From positions 124,001-188,000 of the forward strand of contig NZ_REFP01000009.1 of assembly GCF_003688725.1 (NCBI RefSeq): 64,000 nucleotides of DNA, written 5' to 3'. Below the pieces are notes generated by a model, which saw nothing but the letters and a program-made list of their open reading frames with translations, searched no databases and was not told where the DNA came from. A program made the translations under genes and the position numbers. Source of the DNA: Thermoactinomyces vulgaris. GTDB taxonomy: Bacteria > Bacillota > Bacilli > Thermoactinomycetales > Thermoactinomycetaceae. This document shows positions 3,278-9,988 of the stretch, in pieces (the first letter of the stretch is position 1; each line of letters starts with the position of its first letter).

Positions 3278-4309
3278 ATGGGCTTAAAAATAGATATCTC
3301 CTCCTTGTCTGTCATCGGACTGTCCAAAAACGCCGGAAAAACAACCGTGTTGAATGCGTTGATCCGCGATGCCCCCAAGGCCGGTGTGCTTGGGATATTA
3401 AGCATGGGCGTGGACGGGGAGAAACATGATGCCATAAGCGGCAGGGAAAAGCCTTTGATCCGGGTGAGGGAGAATATGCTGGTGGCCACTTCCGCTCACT
3501 GGTTGAACCGTCAACCGGGGCACTGGGAAGTGATTCAATCCTGCGGAATCCAATCGGTGATGGGGGAAGTGTTCATTGCCCGCGCCAAACGGGAGGGACC
3601 GGTTCTGTTGGCAGGTCTTCCTTCCAAAAGCGGGGCGGAACGGGCGATGGAGTTTTTGAGGCAGGCCGGTGCACAAAAAATCCTGTTGGACGGGGCTTAT
3701 GACCGAAGATCGCCGTCCAGTCCCCAACTGACCGATGCAACCATTCTCGTCATCGGGGCTTCCCTTGATCCAAATTTTGCAGAGGTCCTCCGCAAAGCCG
3801 GGGAATGGAGCCGCTTGCTGCGCTTGAAGGCATGCAGCCATTTTCCGGAACAAAAAGCCGGAGCCTTGGCTTTGGAAAAAAAGCGGGTGGTCGGAGTTCT
3901 CCGCAACCGCATCGAACTGCTTCCTTTCACCGGTTTGTTTTCCGTCCGGGAGGACGGAGAATGGTTGCAAAAAGAATGGCAGGCACTGGCGATCAGCGGA
4001 GCGTTGACCGATCGGATGTTGCAAACTTTTCTCCGCTCCCGGAGGGCCGTCCGCATCATCGTTCCGGACATTACGCATTTATTTGTCAGTATGCCGGTGC
4101 TTCGCCGTTTTTACAAGCAAGGAGGGGAGATTCGCGTCCTGAAACCGATCCGTCTCCTTCAGGTGGCCGTCAACCCGGAATCGCCGGACGGATATTCCTT
4201 TCCCCCCGGGGAAATGAAAGAAAAAATCGGCCGCCTTTTCTTTCCCGTCCCCGTGGTGGATGTGATGAGGGACCGGCATGAGCAGGGAGTGTGGTGTGAT
4301 GTTTTGTGA
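3278..4309 (+). CDS. kamB: Lysine 5,6-aminomutase reactivase subunit KamB
   Basis: A 343-residue P-loop protein with Walker A GLSKNAGKTT at residues 14-23. Family knowledge: KamB, with the MutS-like KamC, restores lysine 5,6-aminomutase when its adenosylcobalamin becomes damaged. I prefer the ATG at 3278, which has AAGGA seven bases upstream, over the in-frame GTG at 3251 inside kamA. It overlaps kamC by 11 bases, which suggests coupled translation. The assignment rests mainly on position between kamA and kamC plus the P-loop; the rest of the sequence has few general landmarks. Confidence 0.88.
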   Translation: MGLKIDISSLSVIGLSKNAGKTTVLNALIRDAPKAGVLGILSMGVDGEKHDAISGREKPLIRVRENMLVATSAHWLNRQPGHWEVIQSCGIQSVMGEVFIARAKREGPVLLAGLPSKSGAERAMEFLRQAGAQKILLDGAYDRRSPSSPQLTDATILVIGASLDPNFAEVLRKAGEWSRLLRLKACSHFPEQKAGALALEKKRVVGVLRNRIELLPFTGLFSVREDGEWLQKEWQALAISGALTDRMLQTFLRSRRAVRIIVPDITHLFVSMPVLRRFYKQGGEIRVLKPIRLLQVAVNPESPDGYSFPPGEMKEKIGRLFFPVPVVDVMRDRHEQGVWCDVL

Positions 4310-5909
4310 TGAGCGTACTGCCAAAGAAATCGGCCTCTCGGTTTGCCTGGACTTGTTTCAGCCGCTCACCCCTTACGGAAGAGAGCAAAAGGATTGCCGG
4401 CCGTTTTTGCCGGGAGAGGAAGAAGCCTGGCAGCAATGTTTACAAGAGCAAGCAGAGATCAAAAAGCAATTTGACGCTTTTTCCATACGGGAACCGGTTC
4501 ATGCCCTTCTCACCGAAATCCCGGACATTTCCTCTGTATTACGGAAACTGGAGGAGTTCCGGTTATTGGACTTGACCGAATGGTTCCAACTGAAAACCTT
4601 TTTATACAGCACGCAGAAGCTCCATTCGCTGTTGAAACAAACCACGCTCTTCCGCATGATTCTCAAAAACAAAGCGATGGAAAAGCGGTGCGAAAAGGCT
4701 TTTCTCCTTTTAAATCCCGCCAAAACGCACACATCTTCTTTTTGGTTTGATGATGCCTATGATGACCGTTTGAGAGAAGCCAGAAAAACGCTCAGGAAAT
4801 TGCAGGCAAAAGTCAAACGGGATCAGGAACAAAAGGCGGTAAGGATTGCGGAAAAAACCGGGCAAACTTGCAACCGGTTTGGAGAATGGGTGGTGCCCCG
4901 GGATACAGAAGGGGACCGGTTGTTAAAAGAAGAGGCGGAATTGATGCTGGTTCGGCAAACGTCCCATGAATCGGTTTACCGCTTAAAAAACGAGCATCCC
5001 TTGTCGTGTGAAATTGCCGCATGGGAAGAACAGATCGCCCGGATCGAACAGGAAATCAACTGGTGGTTGGTAAAAGAACTGGTCCCGTTGGTCCCGGATT
5101 TCCGTGAATGGATGGTTCACATCACCCGGCTTGATCTGCAATGGGCCCGGATCCGGGCGGCCGAACACTGGCAAGGAGTCCGCCCGCGCTGGTCCAAAAA
5201 TCAATTCCGGGTGAAAGGCGCTTTCCATCCTGCCTTGGAGCAAAAGCTGAACGAACGCGGACAATCCATGACCCGTGTGGATTGTTCCATCCGGCGCGGG
5301 GTGACGGTGATCATCGGCCCCAATATGGGGGGGAAAACGGTCGGATTAAAAACATTCGGGTTGATTGCTGTCTTGGCGCAATACGGATTTTTTGTCCCGG
5401 CTGCCGCCTGTGACATGCCTTTGTTTTCCTGGGTTGCCGGTTTGATCGGTGACGGACAGGGAATCCGGCAAGGGCTAAGCCGTTTTGGTGCAGAAATGGT
5501 CCGGTTTCGTGAGTTTTTACAGCTTCCGGGAACGGGACTGTTGTTGTTGGATGAAACGGGAAGCGGAACCAATCCGGTGGAAGGAGGGGCATTGGCCCGG
5601 GCCGTCACGGCTTTTCTTGCCAAAGAGCGGCACTATTCCGTGCATGTGACGCATTATCAGGAGGTTCTGGAAGTCAAAGGCATCCGCCTGTACCAAGTGG
5701 CCGGGATTTCCGGGCGGATGGCCGAAGCCGGTGCATTTCTTCCCGATACTCTTGAAAAAAGGATGGATTACCGGCTGATCCCGGTCAAAGAGGGACGAAA
5801 AAGCATCCCGCATGAAGCCATCCGGATTGCTGAAGCCATTGGTCTGCCTCCCGAAATCATCCGGATGGCCAAACAACAAGCGGGGGAGAAAGCGGGGGAG
5901 GAACAGTGA
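4299..5909 (+). CDS. kamC: Lysine 5,6-aminomutase reactivase ATPase KamC (MutS-like)
   Basis: The 536-residue protein resembles the C-terminal half of MutS: a lever-like helical region followed by the ABC-type ATPase. Walker A GPNMGGKT is at residues 340-347 and Walker B is the LLLLDETGSGTNP segment. The N-terminal mismatch-recognition domains of DNA-repair MutS are absent, so a mismatch repair role is unlikely. The ATG at 4299, with GGGAG nine bases upstream, is preferred to the ATG at 4278. The stop overlaps the kamD GTG start (GTGA). It probably acts with KamB to exchange inactive cobalamin on KamDE. Confidence 0.92.
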   Translation: MFCDERTAKEIGLSVCLDLFQPLTPYGREQKDCRPFLPGEEEAWQQCLQEQAEIKKQFDAFSIREPVHALLTEIPDISSVLRKLEEFRLLDLTEWFQLKTFLYSTQKLHSLLKQTTLFRMILKNKAMEKRCEKAFLLLNPAKTHTSSFWFDDAYDDRLREARKTLRKLQAKVKRDQEQKAVRIAEKTGQTCNRFGEWVVPRDTEGDRLLKEEAELMLVRQTSHESVYRLKNEHPLSCEIAAWEEQIARIEQEINWWLVKELVPLVPDFREWMVHITRLDLQWARIRAAEHWQGVRPRWSKNQFRVKGAFHPALEQKLNERGQSMTRVDCSIRRGVTVIIGPNMGGKTVGLKTFGLIAVLAQYGFFVPAAACDMPLFSWVAGLIGDGQGIRQGLSRFGAEMVRFREFLQLPGTGLLLLDETGSGTNPVEGGALARAVTAFLAKERHYSVHVTHYQEVLEVKGIRLYQVAGISGRMAEAGAFLPDTLEKRMDYRLIPVKEGRKSIPHEAIRIAEAIGLPPEIIRMAKQQAGEKAGEEQ

Positions 5910-8270: not shown

Positions 8271-8624
8271 TTAAAACGAAAATTCGGGAGGAGACAAGGG
8301 GATTTCATTTTCCTGGTAAACTTTTCTTACATAGACCAGATAGTAGGATCGGAACTCCTTGTTGTTTAAGGGATGAATTTCAATCAATTCTTTTTTCTCC
8401 AACTGTTCCATGGCAAAGGAAACACGCGAATAGGGAAAATCCATTTCCTTGGCCAACCGGAAATGGTTGATAATCAGCCCCCGTGGCGGAATATTCACTC
8501 TGAAAATGGTATCTTTTTTAGCGACAGGAGAGGCCAAGCGGCTCAGTTCGTAGTAAACGAATCGTTCCATGGGAGGGAGTTTGTCAACGACAGAATACGG
8601 GATTTGAAAAGAATGAGGCTTCAT
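8271..8624 (-). CDS. Winged-helix-like protein, third gene of the ParM-like cassette
   Basis: A 117-residue protein not recognised by name. The pattern around residues 18-80 (a helix with MERFVYYELSRLA, a beta turn with NIPPRGLI, then helices ending in a basic MEQLEKKELIEI stretch) resembles the winged helix of DnaD-like or plasmid/phage replication proteins. That is pattern recognition only. The start is ATG with an AGGAG-type site upstream on the reverse strand. It lies 27 bases after the ribbon-helix-helix-like gene in the same orientation, so probably the same transcript. Possible roles: an accessory DNA-binding factor for the actin-like system, or a remnant of a replication gene. Confidence 0.6.
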   Translation of the reverse strand: MKPHSFQIPYSVVDKLPPMERFVYYELSRLASPVAKKDTIFRVNIPPRGLIINHFRLAKEMDFPYSRVSFAMEQLEKKELIEIHPLNNKEFRSYYLVYVRKVYQENEIPLSPPEFSF

Positions 8625-8651
8625 ATTCTCTCTCTCCTATTCTATATAAAC

Positions 8652-8918
8652 TTAATAATCAAACGGGATGCCACTGGCTTTAATCTCTTGAAAAGAGGAT
8701 GGAGGTACATTTTGACTCGACAGCATCCGGGAATTTTTCACGGGAGAAAGATCTTTGGCAGGTTGCAATTGGCCCATGCAATAGGCAAACAACAGGTTTT
8801 TGACAAGTCCGGAAAAGTTGATGTCTTCCCGGTCTGCCAACTTGAGCAGTTCCAGTTCCACCGCATCTTCGGTATTAAAGGAAACTTGTCTTCTTTCCCT
8901 CTTTTTATATTCCCTCAT
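8652..8918 (-). CDS. Small ribbon-helix-helix-like protein, candidate ParR partner
   Basis: An 88-residue protein. The basic N-terminus (REYKKRERRQVSFNT) followed by a helix-turn-helix pattern (AVELELLKLADREDINFSGLVKNLL) fits a CopG/MetJ-type ribbon-helix-helix fold, the fold of ParR adaptors in plasmid partition. The C-terminal 35 residues are low in predicted structure, as expected for a tail that contacts the actin filament. Its ATG overlaps the stop of the upstream ParM-like gene (ATGA), a strong sign of coupled expression. No database check was possible, so the partner role is inferred from fold pattern and context. Confidence 0.65.
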   Translation of the reverse strand: MREYKKRERRQVSFNTEDAVELELLKLADREDINFSGLVKNLLFAYCMGQLQPAKDLSPVKNSRMLSSQNVPPSSFQEIKASGIPFDY

Positions 8919-9709
8919 TCACCGAGCGTCTCCTTTCCCAGTGCATAATAACCGAGTGCATTGGCATATTGCGGATTGCCAAAACTGGTGGCGTGGATGA
9001 AACCCACATGTTTGAAGGGCTCCACCAATTCCGTTGCCTTTCCGCCGATCAACTCGACCACATCGGTCGTGGACCACATTCCTCCCAAATGTCCGACGAT
9101 CATGGCCGCCATTTCCTCCGGATCGGCTTCCCGCACATTATCCCATCCTTTTGGCAACGTTCCGCTCTCCCGGTCAATAAAAATCCCGTCTTTAAACGTG
9201 GCATAGTTTGTCGTCCGGGCTCCCGGATCCACGATACGCACCGTTCCCATGCGCCGGTGCACCCAATAGGCCGCTCCTCCCTCAATGGTGATCGCGGCTT
9301 TGGTGATATTGATCTTTCGATATGTACCGTTTAAGACCACTTCGTGCTCTCCCTCCAACTTGGCACGAAGCCTCGCTCTTTCTTCCTCTTTATACATGTT
9401 GATCGGCACGCCGGTGACTAATTTTACATCCCCGATCGCTCCTGCTTTAAACAAAGCCGTCAGGATCAACAATACCGTTTCCACATTGACTTTGCTTTCG
9501 GTCATCATCTGTCTTGTGAAAGACCCTTCCCGCTCTGCCAGTTGCCCGATAAAATATTCCTTCCCTTGATACCGGAGCTCGATATCTTCCTCCAATGTCT
9601 GTACAAATGTTCTTTTTCTCGCTTTTGAAACTTTACTTGGAAATGAGAATTTTTGGTTTCCCGTTACTGTTTTTACAAAGGCACGTCCTGCATCCACCGC
9701 TATTAACAT
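8915..9709 (-). CDS. ParM/StbA-family actin-like ATPase
   Basis: A 264-residue actin-fold protein. Phosphate-1 motif is VDAGRAFVK (D6, G8, K13). Phosphate-2 is VDPGARTTN (D161, G163, T166). The adenosine-site glycines are in ELIGGKATEL (222-223), and the ending NPQYANALGYYALG is typical of ParM/Alp-type proteins, as is LVTGVPINMY near 97-106. Plasmid R1 ParM is about 320 residues, so this is a short member. ATG at 9709 has AGGAGG about eight bases upstream. Family knowledge: such proteins form filaments that push plasmids apart. Here it sits between metabolic operons, so it may be a domesticated plasmid cassette or an unrelated filament system. Confidence 0.85.
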   Translation of the reverse strand: MLIAVDAGRAFVKTVTGNQKFSFPSKVSKARKRTFVQTLEEDIELRYQGKEYFIGQLAEREGSFTRQMMTESKVNVETVLLILTALFKAGAIGDVKLVTGVPINMYKEEERARLRAKLEGEHEVVLNGTYRKINITKAAITIEGGAAYWVHRRMGTVRIVDPGARTTNYATFKDGIFIDRESGTLPKGWDNVREADPEEMAAMIVGHLGGMWSTTDVVELIGGKATELVEPFKHVGFIHATSFGNPQYANALGYYALGKETLGE

Positions 9710-9742: not shown

Positions 9743-9851
9743 AGACTGTCGTCATGACAAGTGTCATTCAATTCGTCTGTCCGGGGACTTCAGTCCGGAC
9801 AAAAGTCAACGAAATGGAAAATCAGGTTGCCGTTTGTCATGACGACAGTCT
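9743..9851. repeat. Perfect 18-bp inverted repeat with arms 73 bases apart
   Basis: The left arm AGACTGTCGTCATGACAA (9743-9760) is matched perfectly by its reverse complement at 9834-9851. Each arm contains the palindrome GTCATGAC. Between the arms lies a shorter inverted repeat, TGTCCGG at 9778-9784 with CCGGACA at 9795-9801. In the ParM-like mRNA this would be a large stem with an inner hairpin; in DNA it is a candidate centromere-like or operator site. Confidence 0.8.
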
Positions 9852-9885
9852 GCATAAACGGAATAGAAATGTCCATAGTCCGGAC
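9751..9885. promoter_or_regulatory. Array of five GTC-n-GAC palindromes (candidate ParR operator or centromere)
   Basis: Sites are GTCATGAC at 9751-9758 and 9837-9844, GTCCGGAC at 9793-9800 and 9878-9885, and the longer form GTCCGGGGAC at 9779-9788. The last GTCCGGAC is inside an 18-bp near-palindrome (9873-9890, 16 of 18 symmetric positions). The array lies in the presumed 5' leader of the ParM-like transcript. Plasmid parC centromeres are arrays of short repeats bound by ParR, so this is the obvious candidate; binding itself is inference. Confidence 0.55.
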
Positions 9886-9893
9886 CATGGTCT

Positions 9894-9899
9894 ATTATA
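9894..9899 (-). promoter_or_regulatory. Candidate -10 element for the ParM-like cassette
   Basis: A perfect TATAAT is read on the reverse strand, about 185 bases upstream of the ParM-like start. A matching -35 box was not found at 16-18 bp spacing. The predicted start point falls on the GTCCGGAC palindrome at 9878-9885, which would suit repression by a cassette-encoded DNA-binding protein. Confidence 0.5.
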
Positions 9900-9988
9900 G
9901 CGCAAAAAAACGGCTTGGAGCATGAAAATATGCTAAAATTGAATAAATATCCATGGAAATGGATGAAGCTGGTTTTGATAAAAATTAA

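Follow-up and report, generated by a model that had tools for sequence, protein, structure and literature searches.

The three small reverse-strand genes at 8271-9709 of the window (by which we mean the whole 64,000-nucleotide stretch of Thermoactinomyces vulgaris DNA analysed here) form, together with an upstream array of palindromes at 9744-9899, a single unit; its A-B type is found near dnaA in this genome and in several relatives. Judged from sequence, the cassette is probably a chromosome-encoded, origin-proximal DNA-positioning system of the ParMRC type (type II, actin), with a four-site array and the origin region as cargo. A sequence-only reading had drawn attention to the genes; the array and the origin linkage were absent from it. 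One of its suggestions, a domesticated partition module, comes close to the explanation that we favor. In the order in which they would be transcribed, the features are:

9894-9899, minus strand: TATAAT, likely -10 box of the A-B-C operon
9871-9892, minus strand: array site 1, core GTCCGGAC, 11 of 12 consensus bases, starting one base past TATAAT
9829-9850, minus strand: array site 2, core GTCATGAC, 11 of 12
9786-9807, minus strand: array site 3, core GTCCGGAC, 12 of 12
9744-9765, minus strand: array site 4, nearest A and 34 bp from its start codon, GAC-N4-GTCATGAC-N4-GTC, 12 of 12
9709-8915, minus strand: gene A, actin-like protein of ParM/AlfA type, 264 aa
8918-8652, minus strand: gene B, putative ParR-like adaptor (by anatomy), 88 aa
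8624-8271, minus strand: gene C, predicted winged-helix protein, 117 aa, accessory and present in one subclade

The three reading frames are present as first described, with an ATGA overlap that couples A and B, and a gap of 27 bp separates B from C. Their setting between metabolic genes is also borne out: convergent to C, on its 3' side, is a lysine 5,6-aminomutase pair with a MutS_V-domain gene, and the divergent 5' neighbor of the cassette encodes a 4Fe-4S/CCG-domain protein. The same flanks (the Fe-S/kamE setting) enclose A-B-C in five other genomes (G015, G003, G016, G009 and G014). Shared flanks and strong purifying selection on A (below) together indicate that the association of the three genes is more than chance. 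The source genome (G000) comprises 2.56 Mb in 15 contigs; its relatives include Thermoactinomyces daqus, two Laceyella species, Hazenella, Lihuaxuella and Melghirimyces. The contig with the cassette is 446 kb long and also carries dnaA and two parB-type genes, and is thus not a low-copy plasmid.

By sequence similarity, A is clearly an actin-like protein (ALP) of the ParM/AlfA type, which upholds the actin fold assigned to it by the earlier reading. It matches Pfam ALP_N at E=4e-29 (102 bits, against a cut-off of 26) and PHROG 691, 'partition protein', at 7e-46; its profile finds pCBH ParM (7e-14), AlfA (~1e-10), Dh-cParM1 (2e-10) and CorM (2e-8) in the PDB. The columns of DAG (residues 6-8), DPGARTTN (161-168) and GGK (222-224), which we take to be the nucleotide motifs, are invariant in an alignment of seven orthologues, and A thus joins an ALP_N domain to the nucleotide motifs of ParM/ALP proteins. 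AlfA (275-278 aa, versus 264 aa for A) aligns to residues 40-244 of A with no long gaps. Against NCBIfam FcmB (NF052678) the score is 32 bits where the curated cut-off is 300, which places A outside that family.

Identity of A is 81-89% in six genomes of five other genera, and 25-36% in its plasmid and phage relatives (14 plasmid and 17 phage records). Between G000 and G015, G003 and G014, respectively, the amino-acid identity of A (0.89, 0.85 and 0.83) exceeds that of KamE each time (0.79, 0.78 and 0.77) and is never below that of the Fe-S protein (0.84, 0.81 and 0.83). Values of pN/pS for A (0.10-0.15 in four pairs with G000; G009 and G016 were left out) are like those of its neighbors (KamE 0.16-0.19; Fe-S protein 0.13-0.16), all of them indicative only, since synonymous sites are near saturation in most pairs. 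By these measures A is under strong purifying selection. There are 45 A-type matches in 41 relatives, of which 40 entered the partner, upstream and tree sets used below; the weak matches G029:C16, G025:C6, G029:C5, G001 and G017:C19 were excluded.

A B-type reading frame is found directly downstream of A in all 40 homologues, its start ranging from 34 bp ahead of the end of A to 42 bp past it; the partner was taken as the first listed downstream reading frame of 50-250 aa, and its likeness to ribbon-helix-helix proteins was judged by eye. The earlier reading was right about the ParM-ParR-type pairing and the chromosomal setting. The product of B has a ribbon-helix-helix-like head (approximately residues 7-48), a variable linker and a conserved tail, IKASGIPFDY. 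Across homologues, head and tail are conserved and linkers differ in both length and sequence; [SG]G[LMI]P[FVIM], the motif of the tail, falls within the last 12 residues of 31 of the 40 partners, including all 29 in the two main clades. Plasmid ParR is likewise described, in passages of PMC4911067 and PMC9426499, as a two-part protein in which a ribbon-helix-helix head is joined to a C-terminus that recruits ParM. The putative assignment of B to the ribbon-helix-helix proteins is based on sequence pattern and conservation. Its structural model, which is of low confidence (pLDDT 61, pTM 0.26), begins with an extended segment, followed by helices at 16-28 and 35-47, a layout compatible with a ribbon-helix-helix monomer. 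No Pfam family matched B over its cut-off, a B profile found nothing of worth among PDB sequences, and Foldseek with the low-confidence model gave no useful fold match.

Between TATAAT and A are four 22-bp palindromic sites with the consensus GAC-N4-GTC-NN-GAC-N4-GTC, spaced 42, 43 and 42 bp apart, or about four helical turns. Placed upstream of a parM-type gene and beside its likely promoter, they have the form of a parC-like repeat array of a type II system. Sites with at least 8 of the 12 consensus bases number four in G000, G015, G016, G009, G014 and G002, and five in G003; the regular array (41-44 bp) has four sites at six of these seven related loci and three in G002, the extra sites in G003 and G002 being strays. 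Shuffled sequences contain a mean of 0.15-0.83 sites and at most three, a comparison that is not independent because the consensus was derived from the same seven loci. At all seven, TATAAT stands 7-8 bp (start to start) ahead of the first array site. A promoter scan of the locus reported no promoter and no -35 match to TATAAT; the stretch at 9894-9950 of the window, with a TATAAT and no matching -35 box, suggests a promoter that may need an activator or another sigma factor.

Eight whole genomes were searched with a strict paired pattern. All matches fell in the array in G000 (three), G009 (two), G003 (one) and G016 (one), and G002 had one stray; the reversed-pattern control gave none in any of the eight. 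The pattern had no match in the arrays of G002, G014 and G015, which are loose, and none in the whole genomes of G001, G014 and G015. A looser single-site pattern allowing two mismatches scored below its reversed control in six of eight genomes and above it in G000 and G009, and was dropped in favor of the strict one. More distant orthologues have another palindrome, like TTGTATATACAA, in three copies in G012 and G013 and in two copies, 31 bp apart, in G038 and G039; upstream of A in G036 there is an 11-nt pair 32 bp apart and nothing more. At least two near-palindrome copies were found upstream of 10 of the 12 loci of the cassette's own type (group I, below), against 1 of 28 other ALP loci, where G014 and G015 count through AT-rich pairs other than the array, G002 and G036 have single copies, and the 28 include distant ALPs; none of the 17 core group II rows has two or more.

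Every group I locus that can be placed, 11 in all, is 29-71 kb from dnaA (G000 58, G015 59, G009 59, G003 61, G016 61, G014 62, G039 70, G002 70, G038 71, G013 33 and G012 29 kb), while none of the four placeable group II loci is close (G009, G030, G039 and G040; 0.95-1.10 Mb); the distances for G009 and G039, and all four of group II, assume closed circles for contigs that start at dnaA. The remaining group I locus, G036:C5, shares no contig with dnaA and is not placeable, so that contig sharing stands at 11 of 12. In a tree of the 40 ALPs, the deep branches of which are weakly supported, origin-proximal ALPs cluster with support of 94/86 (just under the support mark of the tool), with G036:C5 and the long branch G021:C15 inside the cluster. 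Group II is a clade of 17 ALPs (94/88) whose partner proteins end in SGLPF[GA]. The label 'origin-proximal', which we assigned from the dnaA distances, requires two changes on this tree, both due to G036:C5 and G021:C15, against a mean of approximately 10 in shuffled labels; 0 of 500 shuffles were as low.

Group I A-B pairs are intact in 12 of 42 genomes of the order and occupy five gene contexts. In G038 and G039 the cassette is beside kamE in an arrangement other than the Fe-S/kamE setting; elsewhere its neighbors are GerAC and sigma-54-activator genes (G002), Asn-synthase and PucR-type genes (G012), or SPOUT methyltransferase and HtrA-like genes (G013). The kam locus itself lies 64-82 kb from dnaA in four relatives that have no nearby ALP (G019, G022, G030 and G040), and part of the linkage is therefore inherited neighborhood; such a neighborhood could even be the cause of the linkage, without selection for position. 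In G012, though, the ALP is 29 kb to one side of dnaA and kamE 63 kb to the other, and this change of side, with the changes of context, suggests that a position near the origin has been kept, on the strength of few events that are not independent of one another. All 16 genomes tested have ParB-type genes, and 15 of them have at least two (presumably Spo0J and Noc); the cassette thus does not replace the ParB-type system.

Linkage to the origin is a property of this group and not of ALPs in general. Among 398 genomes of the class, 41 have a match to A at 1e-10, of which 30 are inside the order; those outside are at most 38% identical. Upstream of five ALPs from outside the order, no exact 8-bp palindrome recurs within 260 bp. 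We do not extend the linkage beyond the order: the contig of G392 begins at dnaA and has its two ALPs at distances of 1.6 and 1.8 Mb, and in G130, where an ALP of 34% identity lies at 38 kb on a single contig, dnaA is absent from the first 5 kb of that contig.

The group II loci (L060, at G009:C1:1742001-1762000, L065, L066, L081 and others) comprise an A-B pair that is array-free and widespread in the order; we regard this pair as a candidate non-DNA filament system.

Gene C is probably a later addition, a regulator partly independent of A-B. The structural prediction agrees with the fold first proposed for it: its model, of fair confidence (pLDDT 78), is a winged helix, with a single winged helix-turn-helix (wHTH) domain and a disordered end. 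Fold matches are to wHTH proteins of many kinds, none at a Foldseek E of 0.001 or better, and the longest (97-106 residues, Z 8.2-9.2) include N-terminal domains of plasmid initiators (4pql, 4pt7, 4pta and 5kbj); weak PHROG matches include replication initiation and DnaD-like proteins, and a C profile found nothing useful among PDB sequences. A RepA_N initiator would join a wHTH domain to a primase-binding C-terminal domain, and C, at 117 aa, has one domain.

Matches to C occur in 8 of 299 genomes of the class, at the cassette in G000, G001, G002, G003, G009, G014 and G016 and as a longer paralogue alone in G010; G015 was not in this sample, and its own locus carries C. Four of these genomes (G001, G002, G003 and G016) also carry such longer paralogues. 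The paralogues (L038-L042) are wHTH proteins of 180-273 aa with a signature like LTPRERxTYFELVRLAA and a variable tail, and in four of the five loci a conserved gene of approximately 280 aa follows. Searches of G012, G036, G038 and G039 found no match to C, and in G013 B is followed by HtrA-like and metallo-lactamase-like reading frames of opposite orientation.

In G001, from the same genus (L049:9015-10600, 62 kb from dnaA), stops and frameshifts disrupt both A and B, and two array sites can still be made out by eye, about half of the array being gone; C and the flanks are intact, and C is 78% identical to that of G000 with a pN/pS of 0.18. Because C has stayed intact where A and B decayed, it probably has its own use in G001. 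As a third, winged-helix member of the system, the role given to it by the sequence-only reading, C does not generalize: the other five group I loci showed none, and in G001 it outlives A-B.

How might such a cassette work? Dimers of B would bind the four palindromic sites and, since these are about four helical turns apart, would all sit on the same side of the helix and make up a docking scaffold. Binding at site 1, which abuts the likely -10 box, should repress the operon. The conserved tails of B would then capture filaments formed by ATP-driven polymerization of A, and these would push the array or keep it in place. With an array 58 kb from dnaA and a strict pattern found nowhere else in G000, the system would have the chromosome's origin region as its cargo and would operate beside the ParB-type system. 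The joint loss in G001 of A, B and about half the array favors partition. As a counterpoint, the B model is of low confidence and B has no Pfam match over cut-off and no PDB match of note, and the array is loose in G002, G014 and G015; moreover, with ParB-type genes in every genome tested there is no evident need for another chromosome partition system, and the limited distribution of group I, together with its decay in G001, marks it as dispensable.

Alternative explanations assign the same parts to other ends. A-B may have left DNA segregation to shape the cell or the hyphae, with the array serving autoregulation alone. The hosts are filamentous spore formers, which counts in favor of such a role, as does the presence of FcmB and CorM among the weak matches of A. 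There is precedent in the chromosomal, ParM-derived FcmBC of Nostoc, as described in passages of PMC12645912. We nonetheless think a cytoskeletal role unlikely: the FcmB score is far below its cut-off, a phased multi-site array and origin linkage exceed the needs of one operator, and the array-free group II paralogue is a better candidate. It has also to be considered that the array and B act against plasmids or phages, by titrating or capturing the partition complexes of incoming replicons that share the centromere. ParR-parC specificity is reported to set plasmid incompatibility in C. perfringens (passages of PMC9426499), and relatives of the ALP are present on plasmids and phages; these relatives, however, are so diverged from A (25-36% identity) that shared site specificity is unlikely, and a blastn search with the array stretch gave no match among 72,556 plasmid and 50,697 phage records, although such a search has little power for short degenerate sites. 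Origin linkage would be left unexplained, and we consider this reading very improbable.

A leftover of an integrated plasmid, par genes with a rep-like wHTH fragment and no present function, would account for the breakage of A and B in G001, for the patchy distribution of group I, and for the resemblance of C to plasmid initiator N-terminal domains (though other wHTH proteins score as well). The term 'remnant', used in the sequence-only reading, does fit the G001 locus; for the rest it fails as a general account, given a pair that is intact in 12 genomes and near dnaA wherever it can be placed. Conservation of A across genera with low pN/pS, array spacing preserved across seven loci, and the fact that the sequence relatives found for C are other genes of the same family's genomes make this explanation improbable. 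If A-B could not do without C, perhaps as a second DNA-binding adaptor or an activator, the system would truly have three parts. This would be in keeping with the occurrence of C after B in all seven intact loci of the subclade (that in the window and six others), and the conserved TATAAT with no -35 match leaves room for an activator. Against it stand the group I genomes with no match to C, the opposite-strand frames after B in G013, and the intact C of G001 beside broken A and B; its probability we put as very small.

A partition cassette is the reading we prefer, and several known systems bear comparison with it. AlfA, of AlfA-AlfB-parN from Bacillus subtilis, is co-linear with residues 40-244 of A (6f95, 6bqw) and of similar length. 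AlfA-type actins are short and have no subdomain IIB; AlfA is carried by plasmid pLS32, whereas A is chromosomal. CorM (9rmi), a weak match of A, was compared by molecule name alone. In its winged-helix fold over 97-106 residues C resembles the N-terminal domain of RepA_N initiators and DnaD, but differs from RepA_N initiators in having no room for a C-terminal initiator domain, and many other wHTH regulators score equally. The plasmid systems of pSK41, R1 and pCW3, as presented in passages of PMC4911067 and PMC9426499, share parC repeats directly upstream of parM and a parM-parR operon; the C-terminus of their ParR is thought to recruit ParM, and ParR autoregulates. Unlike the cassette, they are plasmid-borne and have direct repeats of 10-20 bp in place of chromosomal palindromes approximately 42 bp apart. 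FcmBC of Nostoc likewise pairs a chromosomal ParM-derived actin with a downstream gene annotated as ParR, but controls cell shape (PMC12645912, in part), and A is far under the FcmB cut-off.

The closest likeness is to the genome-encoded ParMR (cParMR) cassettes reported in 2025 from several bacteria, mostly Bacillota, in which, as far as passages of PMC12270681 go, two proteins polymerize and Cb-cParR binds one chromosomal parC, chromosome function not being demonstrated there. As with Dh-cParM1 of Desulfitobacterium hafniense and Cb-cParM of Clostridium botulinum, a chromosomal ParM-type actin has a nearby ribbon-helix-helix ParR candidate; the cassettes are lineage-conserved, and their genomes also have ParA/ParB (PMC12270681, same passages). 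The locus shares all that defines a cParMR cassette, a chromosomal ParM with an adjacent, lineage-conserved cParR, the adjacent gene here being ParR-like by anatomy. It differs in the length of A (264 aa, against a chain of 369 residues for Dh-cParM1), in its position near dnaA, in 22-bp palindromes phased at approximately 42 bp, and in a wHTH gene in one subclade; the 'oriC' and 'origin' passages of PMC12270681 give no position of cParMR loci relative to the origin. To call the system undescribed, as the earlier reading did, is accordingly an overstatement, since the kind is already known (PMC12270681, in part). New, as far as searches of the open-access literature show, are the origin linkage, the phased array, the order-wide occurrence and the wHTH follower in one subclade; 'Thermoactinomyces' and 'ParM' together retrieved no paper from one open-access library.

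ParMRC systems are known for moving plasmids; this locus offers a way to test if their chromosomal counterparts described in 2025 act on the chromosome, through a defined array, a strict pattern found at one place in the genome, proximity to dnaA, and relatives likewise placed in five neighborhoods. Natural controls are at hand in the array-free paralogue far from the origin and in a sister species (G001) that lost the system. The broadest form of our proposal, to which we give rather less than an even chance, is that in Thermoactinomycetaceae and relatives an actin-driven (type II) centromere next to oriC separates, spaces or anchors origins in parallel to the ParB-type system. If true, this would be a type II partition system with the bacterial chromosome as its natural cargo.

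One further observation concerns the flank of the cassette. The first gene of the lysine 5,6-aminomutase operon (4278-5909 of the window) encodes a stand-alone MutS_V-domain protein of 543 aa, whose identity to relatives at the corresponding position is 40-57%, compared to 74-83% for KamD and KamE.
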